A DNA stretch of 64,000 bases from Ramlibacter tataouinensis (lineage in GTDB: Bacteria > Pseudomonadota > Gammaproteobacteria > Burkholderiales > Burkholderiaceae_C). Both the position numbers and the translations under genes were made by a program. Numbering within the stretch: the stretch's first letter is position 1; the number at the start of each line of letters is the position of its first letter. The notes beneath the pieces are model-generated. The model made no database searches, had not been told where the DNA came from, and worked only from the letters and a program-made list of their open reading frames with translations. Shown one piece after another: positions 23,141 to 34,212 of the stretch. Location: contig NZ_CP116009.1 in the NCBI RefSeq assembly GCF_027941915.1, positions 3,720,001 to 3,784,000 on the forward strand, read 5' to 3'.

Positions 23141-24315
<1,175 letters not shown>

Positions 24316-24319
<4 letters not shown>

Positions 24320-26433
24320 TTACGAGCCCCTTCCAGGTGGTCCTTCAGGCCGCGACCCTCGGCGGCCAGGCGGTCGAGCAGCGGCGCGGGCGTCCAGGCC
24401 CGGGCGTCGGCGCCTGGCTCGGCGGCGATGCGCCTGAGCGCACGCACGACCTCCGACAGCCCGACCTCTTCGGCGTAGTGCATGGGGCCGCCGCGATGGC
24501 GCGGGAAGCCATAGCCGTTGAGGTAGACCACGTCGATGTCCGAGGCGCGCTGCGCGATGCCCTCGTCCAGGATGCGTGCGCCCTCGTTGGCCATCGCGAA
24601 GAGGCAACGCTCGACGATCTCGGCCTTGCCGACCGCGCGCGGCGTGACGCCCTTGTCGCGACGGTATTCGGCCAGCAGCGCGTCGACGGCCGGATCGGCA
24701 ATGGGGTCGCGCCGCCCCGGCTCGTAGCGGTACCAGCCCGCGCCGTTCTTCTGCCCGAAGCGACCCGCCTCGCAAAGGCGGTCGGCAGCGATGCTGAAAT
24801 CCACGCCGGGATTCTCGGCGGCGCGGCGCTTGCGGACCGCCCACGAGATGTCCAGGCCCGCCAGATCGCCGACCCGGAAAGGCCCCATGGCCAAGCCGAA
24901 TTCCTCGAGCGCCCGATCCACCTGCTGGGGCGACGCGCCCTGGAGCAGCAGGTCGTTGGCCGCGGAGACATAGCGCGCCAGGATCCGGTTGCCGATGAAG
25001 CCGTCGCAGACCCCGGCCACGACGGCGACCTTGCCGATCCGCCGGGCCAGTTGCATCACCGTGGCCAGCACTTCGGCCGAAGTGGCCGCGCCCCGCACGA
25101 CCTCGAGGAGCCGCATCACGTGGGCAGGGCTGAAGAAATGCAATCCGACGACGTCCTGCGGCCGACTCGTGAAGCTTGCAATCGTGTCGAGGTTCAAGGC
25201 CGAGGTGTTAGACGCGAGGATCGCCCCCGGCCGCAACACCCTGTCGAGCTGCTCGAACACCACGCGTTTGACTTCGAGGCTTTCGGACACGGCTTCGATG
25301 GCCAGATCGGCATCGACCAGTGCGTCGTAACTCAGAGTCGGCGCGATCAGGTTCATGCGCTGCTCGAGCGCGTCGGGCGTCAGCCGCCCCTTCTTCAATG
25401 CGCTCTCGTAGGTGCGGCGTATCGAGTCGATGCCGCGCTGCAGCGCTTCCTGCCCCGTCTCGAGCAAGCTCACCGCGATGCCGGCGTTGGCCAGGGTGAT
25501 CGCAATCCCGGTGCCCATCGTCCCTGCGCCGATGACGGCGACCTGGCGGATCGGTCGTGCCGCCGTCCCGTCCGGCACACCGGCAACCTTGGTCGACGCA
25601 CGTTCCGCGGCGAATGCATGGCGCAACCCCCGCGACTCGGGTGTGTTCATGAGCTGGAAGAAGAACTCGCGCTCCAGCTTCAGCGCCTCGTCGAAAGGCT
25701 TGCCAACGGAGGCGGCCAGTGCCTCCACGCACTTCTGCGGAGCCGGCATGTTCTTCGACGCGGCGCGCACAGTGTTGCGCGCGAACTGCAGGAACGGCTC
25801 TGCCGCCGGCGCATCCACCACCCGGTCGCGCACGCGGGATATCGGCATCGCCTGTGCGATCACCTTTTCCGCGAAGGCCAGCGCGCCAGGCATCAGTTCG
25901 CCGTCGATTAAGGCATCGATCAGCGGCGTTCCCTCGAAGGAGCGCGCGGCCTGGGGCGCTCCGGAGAGGATCATGTCCAGCGCGCGCTCCAGTCCGACGA
26001 GTCGGGGCAGTCGCTGCGTGCCGCCTGCACCGGGCAAGAGGCCGAGCTTGACTTCGGGAAGCCCCAGCGTGGCCTCCGAGCCGGCGACACGAAAGTGACA
26101 GCCCAGTGCAAGCTCCAGTCCGCCGCCGAGGCAGGTGCCTGCGATCGCCGCGACGACCGGCTTGGATGACATCTCGATCGCACGAATCACCGATGGCAGG
26201 ATCGGATCCCGGCTGGAGTTGGCCGTGCCGAACTCGCGGACATCGGCGCCCGCTGAAAAGATACGCTCGCCCCCGGTCAGGACGAGGGCGCGGATGGCCG
26301 GATTCGCCAGGGCGCGATCCAGCGCAGCGGCGATGCCCACCCGCAAGGAATGCCCCAAGCCGTTGACGGGCGGATGGTCGAGCGTGAGCACGGCGATGGA
26401 GCCGTGCACGGCATAGCCGACGGTAAAGGTCAT
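24316..26433 (-). CDS. FadB-like enoyl-CoA hydratase / 3-hydroxyacyl-CoA dehydrogenase
   Basis: A 705-residue two-domain enzyme. Residues about 1-190 are a crotonase domain, with oxyanion-hole motifs [11 protein letters not shown] and [17 protein letters not shown]. From about residue 295 a Rossmann fold starts with [20 protein letters not shown]. The dehydrogenase His lies in [18 protein letters not shown], and two C-terminal helical domains follow. It performs hydration and NAD-dependent oxidation of the same acyl-CoA. Smaller than E. coli FadB but typical of the beta-proteobacterial monomeric form. It lies 18 bases after an acyl-CoA dehydrogenase gene. Confidence 0.93.
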
Positions 26434-26451: not shown

Positions 26452-27615
26452 TTAGTAGGACTTGGGCAGCCCGAGCGCCTTTTCCGCGATGAAGCACAGG
26501 ATGAGCTGCGGGCTCACCGGCGCGATGCGGGGAATCCAGGCTTCGCGCATGTAGCGCTCGACGTGGTACTCCTTGGCATAGCCCATGCCGCCGTGCGTCA
26601 GGATGGCGTTCTCGCAGGCGTGGAAGCAAGCCTCGGCCGACAGGTACTTGGCCGCGTTGGCCTCTGCGGCGCAGGCTTTGCCCGCGTCGTACAACGACGC
26701 CGCCTTCATGACCATGAGGTTGGCCGCCTCCAGCTCGATCCACGACTTGGCCAGTGGGTGCTGGATCCCCTGGTTCTGGCCGATCGGGCGCTCGAACACG
26801 ACGCGCTCGTTCGCATACTGGGCGGCGCGCTGCAGGGCCACCCTGCCGAGGCCGACGGCTTCCGAAGCGATGAGGATGCGCTCCGGGTTCATCCCGTGCA
26901 GGATGTATTCGAAGCCGCGCCCCTCTTCGCCGATGCGGTCGGCCACGGGGATGCGGAGTCCGTCGATGAAGACCTGGTTCGAGTCGACGCACTTGCGGCC
27001 CAGCTTCTCGATCTCGCGCACCTCGACGTGCGTGCGATCGAGGTCGGTGTAGAAGAGCGAAAGCCCCGCGGTGCCACGTGCCTCCTCCACCGGCGTCGTG
27101 CGGGCCAGCAGCAGGATCTTGTTGGCGACCTGCGCGGTGGAGATCCACACCTTCTGGCCCGAGACCACGTAATGGTCGCCTTCGCGCACGGCGCGGGTCT
27201 TCAGCTTCAGCGTGTTCAGGCCGGCGTTGGGCTCGGTGACGCCGAAGCAGGCCTTGTCACGGCCCTCGATGAGCGGCGGCAGCCAGCGCCGCTTCTGCTC
27301 GTCCGTGCCGTACACCACGACGGGATGAAGGCCGAAGATGTTCATGTGGACGGCCGAGGCGCCGGAGAGGCCGGCGCCGGTAGCCGAGATGGTCTGCATC
27401 ATCAGCGCGGCCTCGGTGATGCCGAGGCCGGCCCCGCCATACTCCGGCGGCATCGCGATGCCCAGCCAGCCCGCGTCGGCCAGCGCACGGTGGAAGTCCA
27501 GCGGGAAATCGCCTTGGCGATCCTTGCGCAGCCAGTAGTCGGCGTCGAAAGGCTCGCACAGGCGCTGGATCGCCTCGCGGATCTGTTCCTGTTCCGGGGT
27601 GAGATCGAAGTTCAC
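26452..27615 (-). CDS. Acyl-CoA dehydrogenase (catalytic type)
   Basis: A 387-residue FAD enzyme. It begins with the usual VNFDLTPEQEQIREAIQR and has FGVTEPNAG for FAD/substrate contact and KVWISTA in the middle domain. The C-terminal helical domain includes VFERPIGQNQGIQHPLAK and ILTHGGMGYAKEYHVERYMR. The start is GTG 27615, with AGGAAA about 6 bases upstream; this gives the normal N-terminus, and no closer ATG exists. It introduces the double bond used by the FadB-like enzyme. A second, different acyl-CoA dehydrogenase gene lies directly upstream. Confidence 0.92.
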   Translation of the reverse strand: MNFDLTPEQEQIREAIQRLCEPFDADYWLRKDRQGDFPLDFHRALADAGWLGIAMPPEYGGAGLGITEAALMMQTISATGAGLSGASAVHMNIFGLHPVVVYGTDEQKRRWLPPLIEGRDKACFGVTEPNAGLNTLKLKTRAVREGDHYVVSGQKVWISTAQVANKILLLARTTPVEEARGTAGLSLFYTDLDRTHVEVREIEKLGRKCVDSNQVFIDGLRIPVADRIGEEGRGFEYILHGMNPERILIASEAVGLGRVALQRAAQYANERVVFERPIGQNQGIQHPLAKSWIELEAANLMVMKAASLYDAGKACAAEANAAKYLSAEACFHACENAILTHGGMGYAKEYHVERYMREAWIPRIAPVSPQLILCFIAEKALGLPKSY

Positions 27616-27629
27616 GTTGGTTTCCTCGC

Positions 27630-28850
27630 TTATGCCTGCGCCTGCTGCGAACCCGTGGCCAGGCTGACGCCGTTCTTCAGCACCTCCCGCGCCACGATCA
27701 TCTTCTGCACTTCGGTGGCGCCCTCGTAGATGCGCAGCGCGCGGATCTCGCGATACAGGCTTTCCATGACGCCGCCCACCTGGACGCCCCTGGCACCAAA
27801 CAACTGCAGGGCGGCATCGATCACTCGCTGCGCGCTTTCGGTGGCCGCCATCTTGGCCATGGCCGCTTCCCGGGTGGTGGGAAGTTGCAGCACATCGCGC
27901 CGCCATGCCGCGCGGTAGGTCAGCAATGCTGCAGCGTCGATGCGCGCCGCCATCGCGCCGATTCGGTCCTGGGTCACCGGCATGTCGCCCAGCAGCTCGT
28001 CGAACATCTGCCGCGAGCGGGCGTGCGCCAAGGCTTCGTCGAAAGCGCGCCGGGCAAAACCCAGCGCAGCCCCGGCCACCGACACGCGGAAAATGTCGAG
28101 CGTGCGCATCGCGAGCTTGAAGCCTTCGCCCGGCTTGCCCAGGAGGCGCGACGCCGGAAGCCGCATGTTCTCGAACCGCAGGGTCGCCAGCGGATGCGGA
28201 GCCATCACCTCGATGCGCTCCGCGATCGAGAAGCCCGGGTCGTCGGGGTACACGACGAAGGCGGAGATGCCACGCGTCTTCGGCCCCTCGCCGGTGCGCG
28301 CGAACAAGGTGTACACATCGGCGATGCCGCCGTTGGAAATCCAGGTCTTTTCGCCGTTCACCACATAGTGATCGCCGTCGCGTACGGCCGTACAGGTCAT
28401 GGCGCCGACGTTGGAGCCGGCTTCCTTCTCCGACAGCGCAAAGGCAGGGATCAGCTCGCCCCGCGCCACCTTGGGAAGGATGGCCTGCTTGAATTCCTCG
28501 CTGCCCTCCAGCGCAATGGGTCCGCTGCCCAGGCCTTGCATGGCCAGCGAAAAGTCCGCCAGCCCACAGCGGTAGGCCAGGCCTTCGCGTGCCAGCGTCA
28601 AGCGGCGCGATTCGATGGCCGGGGAGAAGCCGCCGTAGGCACTGCTCACGCAGGCGCGCAGCAGGCCGGCGCGGCCGAGTTCGGAGACCAGGCGCCGGCA
28701 CGAAGCATCGACATCGCGGTGATCGACGGCATCCAGTGCGCCCGAGTCGGCGAACTCGTCGACCGATTGCATGAACGCACTGTGTTCGGGGCCGAAGAAC
28801 GGCCAGTCAAGCGGCTCTCGCCGGCCAAGAGGAGTGAAGCTATGAGGCAT
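27630..28850 (-). CDS. Acyl-CoA dehydrogenase (second paralogue, first gene of operon)
   Basis: A 406-residue acyl-CoA dehydrogenase. PAFALSEKEAGSNVGAMT is the FAD-contact motif, and EKTWISNGGIADVYTLFA follows. The C-terminal IYEGATEVQKMIVAREVL has the classical catalytic-Glu region. It is intact, unlike the degraded copy in the divergent fusion gene. It is the first gene of the long minus-strand catabolic operon (two dehydrogenases, FadB-like, thiolase, MaoC, CoA lyase). Its promoter region carries a CTACC/GGTAG palindrome at 28883-28897. Confidence 0.92.
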   Translation of the reverse strand: MPHSFTPLGRREPLDWPFFGPEHSAFMQSVDEFADSGALDAVDHRDVDASCRRLVSELGRAGLLRACVSSAYGGFSPAIESRRLTLAREGLAYRCGLADFSLAMQGLGSGPIALEGSEEFKQAILPKVARGELIPAFALSEKEAGSNVGAMTCTAVRDGDHYVVNGEKTWISNGGIADVYTLFARTGEGPKTRGISAFVVYPDDPGFSIAERIEVMAPHPLATLRFENMRLPASRLLGKPGEGFKLAMRTLDIFRVSVAGAALGFARRAFDEALAHARSRQMFDELLGDMPVTQDRIGAMAARIDAAALLTYRAAWRRDVLQLPTTREAAMAKMAATESAQRVIDAALQLFGARGVQVGGVMESLYREIRALRIYEGATEVQKMIVAREVLKNGVSLATGSQQAQA

Positions 28851-28882: not shown

Positions 28883-28897
28883 CTACCTACGCGGTAG
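28883..28897 (-). promoter_or_regulatory. Putative TetR operator 1 in the divergent catabolic promoter
   Basis: CTACC-TACGC-GGTAG dyad. On the minus strand it lies just downstream of a possible promoter (TTGCGC, 18 bases, CATACT) driving the dehydrogenase operon. Its right arm continues as GGTAGTATGT, the same 10 bases found at the second site (28984-28993). The two sites are therefore likely to be bound by one protein, most simply the TetR domain encoded divergently. Confidence 0.68.
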
Positions 28898-28951
28898 TAT
28901 GTACCTGACGTACCACCGAGCGCAAGCCTTCCGGGGGGCTTCACTTCCGGC

Positions 28952-28989
28952 TTGACTCTTGCCGAAAGGTCTCTAAACTACCTGGTAGT
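28952..28989 (+). promoter_or_regulatory. Putative leaderless promoter overlapped by TetR operator 2
   Basis: -35 TTGACT (28952-28957), 16-base spacer, -10 TAAACT (28974-28979). A start of transcription 7-11 bases on would fall at or just before the ATG at 28990, leaving no room for a ribosome-binding site. The perfect dyad ACTACC-T-GGTAGT (28977-28989) covers the -10 and +1 region, ideal for repression. Confidence 0.62.
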
Positions 28990-30837
28990 ATGTCGCCTAC
29001 GCTGATATGGTCCCCCAACCTCGAGTCCGGCGCGGCCCGTTGCCAGGTCCTGGCCGCACGCGTGCCTGGCGCGCTGGATCCGGCGGCGGCCCTGCAATCG
29101 ATGCGCGAAGCCGGGCTGCTAGTCAAGCTGCTGCCCTCCCGGTCGCACAAGAGGGGCGGCGGGGCTTCGTTCACCTCGCTGGTGGCAGCCCTGGAAGGTC
29201 TGGCCATGGGGGCCCCTCTGGCCGCAGCCGCGCTCGCGCAAGCCGTCATCGGCACGGTGCCCGTTGCGCAGCTGGGAAGCGCGCGCCAGAAGGCGGCCTC
29301 GCTCGATGCCCTGGTTCACGGCGACGGCGCGGCGCCTGTCCTGCTGCGCAACGCAGACGCGGGGGCGGACGAGGCGCCGATGAGGGTCGCCCTGCAGCAG
29401 GGCGACTGGCTCCTGGAAGGCGGCGGCCGCTGGGGCGCGGCGGGCGTCGAGGCACCCGCCTTCGTGGTTTTCGCAAGCCACCGTCAAGCCAATGGCGAGT
29501 CCGGGCAAGCGTCCGCGTTCATCATCCCGCGCTTTGCTGCCGGCGTATCGGTCCACGCGACGTCCGGGCCCGCGGGCATGGCCAGTGAAGGCACGCTCCA
29601 GATGCAAGTGCTCGCCGACGGCTCGCTGCTGCTGGGCCCGGCGGGACAGGCCGCCTCCGTCATGGCCGCGACGTTCGCGCTCGATCGCCTGGCCAGCGCG
29701 GCACAGGCCAGCGGCCTTGCAATCGCCGCGTACGAAGAGGCAAGCAAGACGCTCGGCCTGGCAGGGTCGGATGCGCAGGAGGCAGAGCGCAGTTCCCTCA
29801 AGCTCGCCCACTGCGCGACCGCCATCTCGGCTGCACGCATGATGCTCTATGAAGCCGCGCGCGCCGCCGATTCCGGCGAGGACATCCGGCTGGCCAGCGC
29901 GAAGGCGCTGCTCTGCGCCATGGAATGCGCCGAGCGCATGCTGAACCTGACAGTTCAGGTCGTAGGCGGCCATCCTTCGGTCGACGCGGCGCGCATGCAT
30001 CAGTTCCTGGCGGCCCGCCGCCTGCAGCAGTCCGTCGCGGGCCCCGCGGAGCGCCAGGCCGCGCGGATCGCACGCGCCATCGTGCAGCCATCCATCTCTT
30101 CCAGAGGAGACGAACCTCTTATGCCCAAGGCCACCACAGAACCGCGCACGCCGGAGATGCCGGACCGCGTGTCGGAAATCCTTGATGCAGCTGCCGACGC
30201 CTTCGACCAGCAAGGCTACGACGCCACCACCCTCGACCACATCGGCGATGCGCTGGGCGTCACGAAGGGGAGCATCTACTACCACTACCGGAGCAAGGTC
30301 GAGCTGTTCGTCGCCGTCTACCGGCGCGTGATGGAGATGAACCTGGAAACCATCTCGCCCATCGCCGAGGACGAGGCGCTGCTCCCGCTGGAGCGGCTGT
30401 ACCGCATGGCGCACGCCCATTCGCTGCAGGTCATGAAGCACCTTTCGTATCAACGGCTGGCGGTGCATGGCATCGAGGCGCAGCTGATGGGACGCGTCAA
30501 CGAGGATCAGCGCGCCAAGCTCAACGAGGTGATCGTCCTGCGGGACCGTTACCAGGAAATCTTCGTGCGCGCCATCTCGCAGGCCGTCGAGGCAGGCGAG
30601 TTGCCGCAGCAGGACGCACGGATGGCGGTCAAGCCGCTGTTCGGAGCCCTGAACTGCACCACCATGTGGTACCAACCCCGTCCCGGGGAAACAGCGGCGG
30701 ACCGCGAGCGCATCGGCGACCAGCTCGCAGGTTTTGCCATCTCCGGCCTGACGCAGTCCTATCGCAGCGACAACGTCCCCACTTCCCGCCCCACTGCCGC
30801 GCCACAGCGCGCACGCCGCAGCGCCAAGGCGCACTGA
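28990..30837 (+). CDS. Fusion of a degraded acyl-CoA-dehydrogenase-like domain and a TetR regulator
   Basis: One uninterrupted frame of 615 codons. Residues about 1-367 align in length and layout with an acyl-CoA dehydrogenase: SMREAGLL near the start, a beta middle part, then helices ending FLAARRLQQSVAGPAERQAA and RIARAI. The FAD-contact motif is unrecognisable and the YEGTSE-type catalytic-Glu segment is replaced by SVAGPAE. A linker of about 10 residues (PSISSRGDEPL) leads into a complete TetR protein (from Met378) with helix-turn-helix VTKGSIYYHYRSKVELF. An internal ribosome-binding site, AGAGGAG, precedes Met378 by about 11 bases, so a free TetR may also be made. The operator-overlapped promoter and divergent dehydrogenase operon suggest regulation of that operon. 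An acyl-CoA-sensing role is inference. Confidence 0.8.
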   Translation: MSPTLIWSPNLESGAARCQVLAARVPGALDPAAALQSMREAGLLVKLLPSRSHKRGGGASFTSLVAALEGLAMGAPLAAAALAQAVIGTVPVAQLGSARQKAASLDALVHGDGAAPVLLRNADAGADEAPMRVALQQGDWLLEGGGRWGAAGVEAPAFVVFASHRQANGESGQASAFIIPRFAAGVSVHATSGPAGMASEGTLQMQVLADGSLLLGPAGQAASVMAATFALDRLASAAQASGLAIAAYEEASKTLGLAGSDAQEAERSSLKLAHCATAISAARMMLYEAARAADSGEDIRLASAKALLCAMECAERMLNLTVQVVGGHPSVDAARMHQFLAARRLQQSVAGPAERQAARIARAIVQPSISSRGDEPLMPKATTEPRTPEMPDRVSEILDAAADAFDQQGYDATTLDHIGDALGVTKGSIYYHYRSKVELFVAVYRRVMEMNLETISPIAEDEALLPLERLYRMAHAHSLQVMKHLSYQRLAVHGIEAQLMGRVNEDQRAKLNEVIVLRDRYQEIFVRAISQAVEAGELPQQDARMAVKPLFGALNCTTMWYQPRPGETAADRERIGDQLAGFAISGLTQSYRSDNVPTSRPTAAPQRARRSAKAH

Positions 30838-30854
30838 CCGAGAAAAGATCCAGC

Positions 30855-31949
30855 ATGCAAGCAAGAACCTTCCAGGAAGCCCCGCCTCCAGGCACCGCCC
30901 AGTGGGCCGCCGTGGCCAACTGGTACCACGCCTACTTCACCGGCTTGTTGATGACCATGGTGTCGCGCAAGGGCGCGCGCGAGGCGGCCGAGCTGACCTA
31001 CCACATCTTCCGCCGCCAGCACCTCGAGCGCTTTCTCCCGGGGCTGGAGAAGCTGGGCCTCACGGGCCTGCCCCCGGCGGTGACGGCAGCGCGGTACCAC
31101 TACCTGTCCAATGCCATCGGCGGCGTGCGGGTGGAGTACCTCGAGGAAACGCCCCAGAAGGTCTGGGTGCGCTACCCGCCGCCGCGCTGGGCCTGGCACG
31201 GCACTGCCATCTGCGCCATCCCCGGCGAGGTGTCGCGCGCGGTGCTGCGCGGCTGGCACGCGCACAACGGGGTGACGCTCGGGTCGCGCAGGCTCGGCTT
31301 CGTCTGCACCAAGCAGACCGTCGACGGCCAGCCGGGGCTCGAAGGCTACTACTGCGAATACGACCGCGACATCGAGCCCGACGAGCGCCTGCGCTTCGAG
31401 CGCGGCGTCGAGATGCCCGACGTCGATCCGGCCAGCATGCCGGTGCTGCCGACGGCCGACTGGCCGCAGGAGCGGCTGCAGAAGGCTCGCCGCAACTATG
31501 CGATGGAGTACGTGCGCACCGCCCTGCCCGAGCTCATCGCGCTGCACGGCCCGCACGAAGCCGAATACCTCGGCGGCATCACGGCGCGCCTGATCGGCAT
31601 GCAGTTCTACAGCGAGACCGCCGCCGCATTCGGGGTTCCGGATCACGGCGATGCCGGCGACTTCGCCCGCTTCATGGTCATGCTGGCTCGAGCTCAGGGC
31701 GACAGCGCCGAGCTGGTCGAGAGCCCGCAGGGCGTCGGGGTGCGGCAGACGAGCTGGAAGCTGATGGCCGGCCTGCCTTCGCTGCACGGGGCGGCGTTCC
31801 AGATGTGGAACCAGCTCCTCGAAGGCGCGCTGTCGGCGCACAACCGCCGTCTCCAGCTCGAGCTGACGCGGCGGCGCGACCTGGGCGACGAGGCGTTCGA
31901 GTGGCGGATCGCGCGACGTCTGCGCGGCAGTCTCGCCTCCGCCAGCTGA
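30855..31949 (+). CDS. Conserved protein of unknown function (364 aa)
   Basis: I do not recognise this family. There is no signal peptide or clear membrane helix. Tyr, Trp and Arg are frequent, for example ANWYHAYFTGLLMTMVSRKG and VRYPPPRWAWHGTAICAIPG. Cys residues occur in TAICAIPG, FVCTKQ and YYCEYDRD. The alpha-helical C-terminus is rich in Arg/Leu. The gene follows the fused regulator by 17 bases and precedes the CoA-transferase by 11, so it is probably cotranscribed and belongs to the same catabolic pathway. A hydrolase or small-molecule-binding role is possible, but the sequence does not show it. Confidence 0.8.
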   Translation: MQARTFQEAPPPGTAQWAAVANWYHAYFTGLLMTMVSRKGAREAAELTYHIFRRQHLERFLPGLEKLGLTGLPPAVTAARYHYLSNAIGGVRVEYLEETPQKVWVRYPPPRWAWHGTAICAIPGEVSRAVLRGWHAHNGVTLGSRRLGFVCTKQTVDGQPGLEGYYCEYDRDIEPDERLRFERGVEMPDVDPASMPVLPTADWPQERLQKARRNYAMEYVRTALPELIALHGPHEAEYLGGITARLIGMQFYSETAAAFGVPDHGDAGDFARFMVMLARAQGDSAELVESPQGVGVRQTSWKLMAGLPSLHGAAFQMWNQLLEGALSAHNRRLQLELTRRRDLGDEAFEWRIARRLRGSLASAS

Positions 31950-31960
31950 AAGGTGCCGGC

Positions 31961-33154
31961 ATGACCCAAAGCCTCACCGGGCTGACCGTGATCGATGCGT
32001 CGCGTGTGCTGGCCGGCCCCTACTGCGGGCAGATGCTCGGAGACCATGGCGCCCAGGTCATCAAGGTCGAGTCGCCCGAAGGCGACGAGACCCGCACGTT
32101 CGGGCCACCGGTTCGCGACGGCAGCGCCGCGTACTTCCATGCCCTCAATCGCAACAAGCGGGGCATCACGCTCGACATGAGCGGTCCGCAGGGCCGCGAC
32201 GTCCTGTGGCGCCTTCTCGAAACAGCCGACGTGCTGATCGAGAATTTCAAGGCGAGCACCCTGCGCAACTGGGGCATCGAGGACCCATCGGAAATCTGCC
32301 GCCGCTTTCCGCGCCTCGTGCACTGCCGTATCACTGGCTTCGGGGACGATGGTCCGCTCGGCGGCCTGCCGGGCTATGACGCAGCGATCCAGGCCATGTC
32401 GGGCCTGATGAGCGTCAACGGCGCGAGCGAAGGCCCGCCGTTGCGCATGGGCGTCCCCGTCGTCGACCTTGCCACCGGCATGCAGGCGGCCATTGCGGTG
32501 CTCGCCGCTCTGCAGGAGCGCTCGCGGTCCGGCCTGGGCCAGATGTGCGACGTCGCGCTCTACGACTGCGCGCTCAGCGTGACGCATCCGCACCTGCCCA
32601 ACTACGCCTGGAGCGGCAAGGAACCGAGCCGCTCCGGCAACGCGCATCCCAACATCGCGCCGTACGACGCCTTCGAGACCGCCACCTGCCCGGTCTACAT
32701 CGCCGTCGGGAACGACCGCCAGTTCGCGATGCTCTGCACGCTGCTCGACTGCCCGGAAGTGGCTGCTGATCCACGCTTTCGCCGCAACGTCGACCGCATC
32801 GCCCATCGCGACGAGCTCCGGCAGGTGTTGAGCCGCCAGCTGACGCATCAGGATGGCCAGGCCGTGGCTTCGCGCCTGCACGAAGCGGGTGTGCCGGTCG
32901 CGCCCGTGCTCGGCATCGCGGACGTCGCCGCCTCGCCCCATGCCAAGCACCGCGAGATGTTTCTCGAACGCGATGGCTACAGGGGGACCGGCTTTCCCGT
33001 CAAGCTCAAGCGGACGCCGGCCACGCTGTCCAGGCTGCCGCCGGGCCGTGGCGAGCACACGCACGAAGTCCTGCGCGAGGCGGGCTTCAGCGGCGAGGAG
33101 ATCCGAGAACTCGCTCGTTGCGGCGCGCTGGGAGCCGCGGCCGGCGAGCCCTAG
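31961..33154 (+). CDS. CaiB/BaiF (family III) CoA-transferase
   Basis: A 397-residue family III CoA-transferase. It begins LTGLTVIDASRVLAGPYCGQ, the standard N-terminus. Other family motifs are IKVESPEGDETR, NKRGITLDM and GYDAAIQAMSGLMSVNG, the last with the Asp expected to carry the acyl-CoA intermediate. It moves CoA between carboxylic acids, giving entry of a free acid into the pathway encoded around it. Preceded by AAAGGTG about 7 bases before the ATG. Together with the MaoC hydratase and CitE-like lyase it would make a set comparable to itaconate or related C5-dicarboxylate degradation (inference). Confidence 0.92.
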   Translation: MTQSLTGLTVIDASRVLAGPYCGQMLGDHGAQVIKVESPEGDETRTFGPPVRDGSAAYFHALNRNKRGITLDMSGPQGRDVLWRLLETADVLIENFKASTLRNWGIEDPSEICRRFPRLVHCRITGFGDDGPLGGLPGYDAAIQAMSGLMSVNGASEGPPLRMGVPVVDLATGMQAAIAVLAALQERSRSGLGQMCDVALYDCALSVTHPHLPNYAWSGKEPSRSGNAHPNIAPYDAFETATCPVYIAVGNDRQFAMLCTLLDCPEVAADPRFRRNVDRIAHRDELRQVLSRQLTHQDGQAVASRLHEAGVPVAPVLGIADVAASPHAKHREMFLERDGYRGTGFPVKLKRTPATLSRLPPGRGEHTHEVLREAGFSGEEIRELARCGALGAAAGEP

Positions 33155-33237
33155 CCTGGCGGTGCCGCCGGGCAGTTCCAGGCATCCGTAGAAGCCGCGC
33201 CAAGCGGCATGTCCAACCTTCCAATCAGGAGACCTCC

Positions 33238-34212
33238 GTGAAATTCAAGTTCCTTCATGTGGCGGCCGTGATGGCCTTCGCCGCCGCGGCAAGCACCCCG
33301 TCGCACGCCAGCGATGCCTATCCCAGCAAGCCGATCCGCATCGTCTCGCCCCACACGGCGGGATCGACGACCGAGACGTTCGGGCGCATGCTCACGACCG
33401 AGATGTCGGAGCTGCTGGGGCAGCAGATCATCGTCGACGCCAAGGGGGGCGCGGCCGGAACCACGGGGGCGCGGGAAGTCGCGCTCAGCAAGCCCGACGG
33501 CTACACGGGCCTGATGAACGCCTCGATCCAGGTGATGTACACGGGCATGTTCAAGTCCTTGTCCTTCGACCCGATCAAGGACTTCACCCCGGTTGGCGTC
33601 TTCGGCTTCGCACCGATGGTGGTGCTCGTCAACAGCGAGTCCAAGATCAGCAGCTTCGGCGACATGATCAACCGGGCACGCGCGAATCCCGGGAAGCTGT
33701 CTTTCGCATCCGGTGGCCTGGGATCGCTCCCGCACCTCGTGGGCGAGCTGGTCAACTTGAGCACCAGCACCAAGATGTCCCACGTCCCCTACAACGGGAC
33801 CGGCCAGGCGCTCACCGACGTCGCCGGCGGCCACGTCGACGTGCTCTATGCGTCCGTCGCGAGTGCATTGCCCCTGGTCAAGAGCGGCAAGGTGCGCGCA
33901 CTTGCCGTGACCTCGGCGCGGCGCATTGACCTGCTGCCGGACGTGCCGACCGTGGCCGAGTCCGGCATTCCCGGTTTCGACGTGACGTCGTGGTACGCGA
34001 TGTGGGTGCCCAAGAACACGCCGCGCGACATCGTGGCCAAGCTGAACAAGGCGATGCGGGATGCGTCGAACCAACCGGCCGTCCAGCAGCGCATGAAGAG
34101 CAATGGCGTGATTGCCAGCAAGCTGACGGCCGACGAATTCGCGAAGTTCACGGCCAGCGAGAACGCCAAGTGGCTCGATGTCATGCGGCGCGCGAACGTC
34201 GAGCCGAACTGA
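33238..34212 (+). CDS. Bug/TctC-family periplasmic solute-binding receptor
   Basis: A 324-residue tripartite-tricarboxylate-type receptor. A signal peptide ends near SHASDAYPSKPIRIV. The Bug-family hallmark IVDAKGGAAGTTGAREVA binds the ligand carboxylate through the loop and water molecules. Domain 2 contains HVPYNGTGQALTDVAGGHVD and LPDVPTVAESGIPGFD, both typical. The start is GTG 33238, with AGGAGAC 5 bases upstream. No TctA/TctB partners are nearby, as is common for Bug proteins. As last gene of the plus-strand unit it probably captures the acid that the CoA-transferase activates. Confidence 0.93.
   Translation: MKFKFLHVAAVMAFAAAASTPSHASDAYPSKPIRIVSPHTAGSTTETFGRMLTTEMSELLGQQIIVDAKGGAAGTTGAREVALSKPDGYTGLMNASIQVMYTGMFKSLSFDPIKDFTPVGVFGFAPMVVLVNSESKISSFGDMINRARANPGKLSFASGGLGSLPHLVGELVNLSTSTKMSHVPYNGTGQALTDVAGGHVDVLYASVASALPLVKSGKVRALAVTSARRIDLLPDVPTVAESGIPGFDVTSWYAMWVPKNTPRDIVAKLNKAMRDASNQPAVQQRMKSNGVIASKLTADEFAKFTASENAKWLDVMRRANVEPN

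Follow-up and report, generated by a model that had tools for sequence, protein, structure and literature searches.

What can an acyl-CoA dehydrogenase (ACAD) do when it is joined in one chain to a TetR repressor, and how did it come to be there? The question is raised by a single gene of the window, that is, the whole 64,000-nucleotide stretch of DNA analysed here. One uninterrupted reading frame of 615 codons was found, which can be divided as follows.

28990..30837, + strand: gene for a fusion of a pseudo-acyl-CoA dehydrogenase and a TetR regulator, 615 aa
28990..30120, + strand: ACAD-like domain and part of the linker, residues 1-377; catalytic Glu absent, most FAD-contact positions lost
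30121..30837, + strand: TetR regulator (TetR_N + TetR_C_24), a possible separate product from Met378

The ACAD fold occupies residues about 7-366 and is kept over its full length, in the order N helical, middle beta and C helical domain, while the TetR repressor, including a ligand domain of its own, occupies residues about 392-590. In Pfam the ACAD C domain, TetR_N and TetR_C_24 all came out above cut-off, and the N and middle domains of the ACAD part below it. The helix-turn-helix of TetR_N scored 62 bits (cut-off 24) and the C-terminal ligand/dimer domain TetR_C_24 48.3 bits (cut-off 26.4), which agrees with the complete TetR with intact helix-turn-helix described in an earlier note on this DNA. 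The best solved sequence match of the TetR part was DarR (E 9.3e-31), and the heterotetrameric ACAD structures 4x28, 6wy8 and 6wy9 were among the fold matches of the ACAD part.

Eight aligned TetR parts were used to scan species genomes; 392 stretches matched, 355 relatives were obtained and the best 80 were kept. The top 12 of these 80 are 64-73% identical to the window's TetR. Ten of them (L041-L050) carry an ACAD-like part and TetR in one frame of 584-623 codons, and the remaining two (L039, Cupriavidus numazuensis; L040, C. yeoncheonensis) a lone TetR. With the window's ACAD part as query, tblastn at 1e-8 found the ACAD part in nine of the ten fused loci L041-L050; it missed L044, whose ACAD part rests on alignment with the other Achromobacter rows. 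The twelfth fusion, the window counted, is L148 from Achromobacter, in a genome outside those used for model building. Among the other 68 of the best 80, a separate ACAD gene lies just upstream of TetR on the same strand in nine, six times in another frame and three times in frame with an intervening stop. The earlier note had claimed a true in-frame ACAD-TetR fusion, and this is borne out by the ten fused loci among the twelve closest; orthologues always encoded as two genes, which it had named as evidence to the contrary, were not what we found, and the same two-domain order was met in 12 genomes, the window's included. It may be argued that a sequencing or assembly artefact joined two genes, the more so as the genes overlap in the closest relative with an unfused pair. 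However, the fusion is present in 12 independent genomes, which by their record titles come from several sequencing projects, and an artefact or frameshift, whose chance we regard as practically nil, was rejected.

The distribution of the fused gene was then followed by rank. Seven matches at 1e-100 or better, all fused and with no stop, were found in 43 genomes of Achromobacter (genus of L043), and 12 matches at 1e-45 or better in 60 genomes of Cupriavidus (genus of L041), of which one is fused and two are lone TetRs of the fusion's type. In 60 genomes of the window's own genus there were two matches at E 1e-24 or better and no fusion besides the window's; in G026, of the same genus, ACAD and TetR are separate genes. 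The fused gene is thus seen in 1/60 genomes of the window's genus, 1/60 of Cupriavidus and 7/43 of Achromobacter. At 1e-26 or better, 399 genomes of the family gave eight matches, the window's being the only fused one (G115 was called unfused from its 221-residue open frame), and 399 genomes of the order gave six, with no further fusion (G798 was called unfused from a stop inside the match). The window's was the sole match at 1e-45 or better in 274 genomes of the class, and of three matches in plasmid records the only one to span both parts is annotated as two genes. Since the fused gene, in the locus 28990-34212, is patchy among genera, horizontal transfer is suggested. Separately, the fused locus L042 is binned in a Desulfovibrionaceae metagenome-assembled genome, and its sequence groups with betaproteobacteria; its placement is probably a binning error or a transfer.

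The genes on both sides of the fusion are the following.

23141..24319, - strand: thiolase
24316..26433, - strand: enoyl-CoA hydratase / 3-hydroxyacyl-CoA dehydrogenase fusion
26452..27606, - strand: ACAD2, a second acyl-CoA dehydrogenase behind ACAD1
27630..28850, - strand: ACAD1, divergent acyl-CoA dehydrogenase with a YEGAT Glu, 70-80% identical in 12/12 related loci
30855..31949, + strand: conserved protein (DUF), 364 aa, 74-80% identical in 12/12 related loci
31961..33154, + strand: CaiB-type CoA-transferase (CoA_transf_3), with a relative in 8/12 related loci
33193..34212, + strand: TctC/Bug substrate-binding protein, 66-70% identical in 12/12 related loci

In all 12 related loci ACAD1 is divergent from the regulator, and DUF and Bug lie downstream of it. 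Because ACAD1 is followed by ACAD2, the hydratase/hydroxyacyl-CoA dehydrogenase and the thiolase, the regulated pathway is probably the activation and beta-oxidation of an imported acid. The 364-aa DUF protein gave no Pfam or NCBIfam match, and PDB matches at chance level only; it occurs also in ACAD-DUF-CaiB operons elsewhere (55-60% identical) and probably acts in the pathway, as an enzyme or as a partner. In ACAD2 the alignment shows no Glu at the usual catalytic position, and a Glu-Arg at an alternative one, presumably that used by isovaleryl-CoA dehydrogenase.

The ACAD domain of the fusion is apparently a dead enzyme, as judged from its residues. The catalytic Glu of the YEGT segment is replaced by Ala in 10 and by Val in 1 of the 11 fusions of the alignment, and by Ala in L148, and is thus lost in 12/12; the degraded active site described in the earlier note was in this respect confirmed. 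An alternative catalytic position lies beside a conserved Arg and is, we assume, of the isovaleryl-CoA-dehydrogenase type; there, before R233, the window has D and the other 10 fusions H, C, R or Y. When the 11 fusions were aligned with 16 active ACADs, SERxAGSD, RxTFG..Q and GGxGY, which we take to be the FAD-contact stretches, were found largely gone, in line with the earlier statement that no FAD-contact motif can be recognised; single positions survive, for example reference W159 and G161 in 8/11 fusions. About 10-13 residues are deleted from the N domain of the fused ACADs. Among the 111 positions invariant in the 16 active ACADs, 26 survive in 9/11 fusions or more and 62, including much of the FAD site, in no more than 2/11; the window keeps 48 of the 111 and the other fusions 33-44. 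W7, E69, R233, Q239 and G242 are invariant across the 11 fusions.

To what extent this domain is still under selection was analyzed by pairwise dN/dS. In the 15 pairs of six Achromobacter rows the ACAD part gave 0.24-0.40 against 0.06-0.12 for TetR, and in the pair L042/L050 0.29 against 0.07; values of the ACAD part against the window were 0.43-0.68, but at dS above 1. Five of the 55 pairs, four from Achromobacter and L042/L050, were also compared by sub-domain, with 100 bootstraps. In these five pairs dN/dS was 0.23-0.52 for the N domain, 0.29-0.44 for the middle domain, 0.46-0.98 for the linker and 0.04-0.06 for TetR, whose value was 0.04-0.05 in the Achromobacter pairs. For the C-terminal helical domain the four Achromobacter pairs gave 0.16-0.19 and L042/L050 gave 0.33, no tighter than the 0.23 of its N domain. 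The upper bootstrap limits of the three ACAD sub-domains were all below 1 in the five pairs, one reaching 0.93, and the controls gave 0.05-0.07 (three intact-ACAD pairs) and 0.08-0.11 (three ACAD1 pairs). Therefore, judging from the sub-domain values beside those of the controls, the ACAD domain is maintained by purifying selection, more loosely than a working enzyme. Simulated neutral evolution of the window's ACAD part gave about 7 stops on average once 0.4 changes per site had accumulated, with a minimum of 1 in 200 draws, and the real fusion frames have no stops; a chance ORF or a pseudogene was ruled out by this simulation together with dN/dS.

A different possibility is that the ACAD domain is a relic which is tolerated as the TetR frame follows it, only translation through it being of importance. 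The near-neutral linker, a constraint looser than that of working ACADs (0.05-0.11), the two relatives that manage without the domain, and the long stem and long branches of the fused ACADs in the tree given below are what such a relic would lead one to expect. However, the sub-domain values of 0.16-0.52 with all upper limits below 1, the five residues invariant in 11 fusions and the number of stops that a neutral frame would have gained all speak against it, and we consider a relic very unlikely.

The origin of the fusion was approached by two trees and by the unfused gene pair. In a tree of 48 TetR parts (the window, 39 of the 80 loci and 8 taken from searches of genomes), one clade (100/100) is made up of the 11 fused and two lone TetRs; inside it the window groups with the two lone TetRs, with a support of 90/84 that does not reach the program's star. 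The second tree, of 33 ACADs, unites the 11 fused ones in a single clade (100/100) with a long stem (1.52) and long branches; the program warns of long branches, and the letter make-up of the six Achromobacter rows is unusual. The fused clade sits within ACADs that adjoin TetR genes or stand in ACAD-DUF-CaiB operons, apart from ACAD1, and the window's ACAD2 falls in the same region on a very long branch. An intact ACAD, TetR, DUF and CaiB in the gene order of the window were found in G855 (probably Cupriavidus), where TetR is 51%, DUF 60% and CaiB 59% identical to the window's and the ACAD stop and TetR start overlap by four bases, ATGA. By its gene order and overlap this arrangement looks like the pre-fusion state. 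In the genomes of L039 and L040 no ACAD of the fusion's type was found elsewhere, the best matches of the ACAD part being 28-29% (E 1.6e-25, 3.2e-24); the same query gave 42% and 36% (3.3e-61, 3.3e-50) in two fusion-bearing genomes. The simplest reading would be one fusion followed by one loss of the domain in two Cupriavidus species; by the trees alone, there may have been two independent gains of the ACAD domain.

The divergent promoter region of the window contains two 16-bp operator-like palindromes, 91 bp apart.

28886..28901, + strand: operator-like site 1, CCTACGCGGTAGTATG, an imperfect palindrome
28977..28992, + strand: operator-like site 2, ACTACCTGGTAGTATG, containing the ATG start codon of the fusion

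An imperfect palindrome, mostly C(A/C)TAC-N6-GTATG, lies between ACAD1 and the regulator in all 13 loci (the window and L039-L050). With a relaxed pattern, paired sites 80-93 bp apart were seen in 11/13 loci and a single site in L043 and L045; with the stricter CMTACN6GTATG, two sites were seen in 7/13 loci, and the 64-kb window has one only. L148 has two sites 93 bp apart. The patterns were written after inspection of the sites, and MCTACN6GTATG, made to fit the window's pair, has two matches in the 4.47 Mb genome, both at this locus; its reversed control has one. Such sites are not general to the wider group, because among 20 other loci, scanned on one strand, they were found in L068 only. 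We infer that the palindromes are putative TetR operators near the repressor's own gene. The spacing is 91 bp in the window and likewise in both unfused loci (L039, L040), and the idea that it is a product of the fusion was dropped for that identity. Since lone TetRs of the same clade retain both sites, the ACAD domain is an accessory, dispensable for the basic switch.

Two further signals concern the products of the gene.

28952..28979, + strand: promoter-like TTGACT-16-TAAACT; the leader ahead of the fusion start would be just a few bases long
30103..30109, + strand: Shine-Dalgarno-like AGAGGAG with a spacing of 11 nt to the internal start and a duplex energy of -9.1

Between residues 365 and 392 the alignment of the 11 fusions has one strictly invariant column, Met378; this Met is present also in L148, behind GGGAG (-6.8), and both lone TetRs begin at the ATG corresponding to it. 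The energy of -9.1 is reached at 2.4% of the in-frame positions of the window's gene, another in-frame ATG of which scores -9.2, and a spacing of 11 nt exceeds the usual. Pairing with the anti-Shine-Dalgarno before the junction Met has a mean of -5.8 against -2.7 at 158 other in-frame ATGs, with p = 3.5e-4, a value too strong as related rows were counted as independent. In the earlier note an internal ribosome-binding site before Met378 had been proposed. Its Met stands in 12/12 fusions; the ribosome-binding signal stands in 8/12 (7/11 and L148, at -5.8 or better), is weak (-3.5 to -4.3) in L046, L047 and L049 and is absent in L043, which weakens the role of such a site in all members. A second, free TetR product from Met378 is plausible on these grounds. 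As no Shine-Dalgarno signal precedes the full-length start in the window (-2.4) and the transcript would start a few bases ahead of it, free TetR might be the main product in this genome. The fusion start codon of the window lies inside operator-like site 2, and the likely starts of the relatives lie further downstream, so that the window's gene, in contrast to theirs, may be read from a message with almost no leader.

How might the pieces act together? We propose, at slightly less than an even chance, that a TetR repressor took over the ACAD of its operon, which became an N-terminal pseudoenzyme domain and serves most likely as an assembly core, free TetR being made from Met378. TetR dimers at the two sites would repress ACAD1 in one direction and the fusion-DUF-CaiB-Bug operon in the other; a CoA thioester of the pathway, on binding to the C-terminal domain of TetR, would release them. 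ACADs normally form tetramers through their C-terminal helices. The ACAD fold would join two TetR dimers in one particle, matching the two sites; translation from Met378 would give an ordinary, free TetR as well, and the ratio of the two forms would tune repression. The capture is supported by the unfused pair of G855, the single clade of fused ACADs, the lost Glu, the frame kept under selection and the invariant Met. DarR binds DNA as two interacting dimers (PMC10636190). The C-terminal helical domain being the most constrained in the four Achromobacter pairs points rather to assembly than to sensing; against assembly count the pair L042/L050, in which this domain is not more constrained than N, and the 91 bp spacing of the two relatives without an ACAD domain, which shows that the spacing needs no ACAD. 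The single clear operator-like site of L043 and L045, the weak or missing Shine-Dalgarno signal at some internal starts and the comparison of the window's own ACAD part at dS above 1 only also weigh against the proposal. From the comparisons at hand the domain is an accessory, probably with a role in assembly.

The earlier note had suggested that the ACAD domain could be an acyl-CoA sensor; in such a sensor the degraded site would still bind a CoA thioester of the pathway, without FAD or catalysis, and would signal to TetR. A fold retained over its length, dN/dS below 1 in three sub-domains of five pairs and neighbours that encode CoA enzymes would all fit such a sensor, and MocR/GabR provide the case of an enzyme fold that senses for a DNA-binding domain (PMC6917764). 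Nevertheless, TetR has an intact and strongly conserved C-terminal domain of its own, the ACAD part is missing in relatives that have the same sites, and 62/111 positions, much of the FAD site among them, are kept in at most 2/11 fusions. We consider a sensor unlikely. It is also conceivable that the dead ACAD enters a mixed tetramer with ACAD1, the repressor thereby feeling the amount or occupancy of the enzyme. ACAD1 is divergent from the regulator in 12/12 related loci, the three heterotetrameric structures (4x28, 6wy8, 6wy9) are among the fold matches, and heterotetrameric ACADs with the catalytic Glu in only one subunit per pair exist (PMC8399759). However, ACAD1 is equally present at the two loci with unfused TetR, and ACAD1-like genes are divergent from unfused TetRs elsewhere (L056, L061, L067); we regard such coupling as distinctly unlikely. 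The ACAD fold as an assembly core is the preferred reading, with the sensor and the mixed tetramer as serious rivals.

Compared with SCAD/MCAD-type ACADs, the fusion is without the catalytic Glu, most FAD contacts and 10-13 residues of the N domain, and its ACAD is joined to a DNA-binding protein. Both TetR domains are intact as in the DarR / TetR_C_24 group of the TetR family; unlike DarR, whose ligands are c-di-AMP and cAMP, the fusion bears a 370-residue N-terminal extension. MocR/GabR likewise hold an enzyme fold and a DNA-binding module in one chain (PMC6917764), but with a different enzyme fold, DNA-binding family and the opposite domain order, and GabR binds PLP. Their GntR winged helix and PLP aminotransferase fold were not found in the fusion, for which Pfam gives TetR and ACAD, and the resemblance is one of analogy only. 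Glu-less ACAD subunits also serve in the heterotetrameric steroid ACADs ChsE1/2 and ChsE4/5 (PMC8399759), which are enzyme subunits and not regulator parts. In PA3973/PA3972 TetR and ACAD are separate genes and the TetR represses the neighbouring ACAD gene (PMC9736018); these are two proteins, not one, and PA3973 has many other binding sites. No ACAD-TetR fusion was described in the titles and abstract openings of the papers listed, mostly without subscription papers; the one relevant passage found concerned neighbouring genes. Enzyme folds recruited as regulator domains are already known from MocR/GabR; the combination of ACAD with TetR would be the new part.

As a whole it is doubtful, but conceivable, that the pseudo-ACAD-TetR proteins form a new regulator class of the one-component type. 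Two TetR dimers would be coupled over two operators by a scaffold, the dead tetrameric enzyme, an internal start would supply a scaffold-free repressor, and the scaffold would later have been lost in one lineage. From these sequence comparisons a former enzyme apparently now serves within a regulator, because selection keeps the same fused gene in several related bacteria. Related bacteria still carry the intact unfused pair, the fused form and TetRs that lack the domain. With such natural variants one can test directly by which steps the enzyme became a piece of a regulator, and how a second form of the protein was gained or lost.
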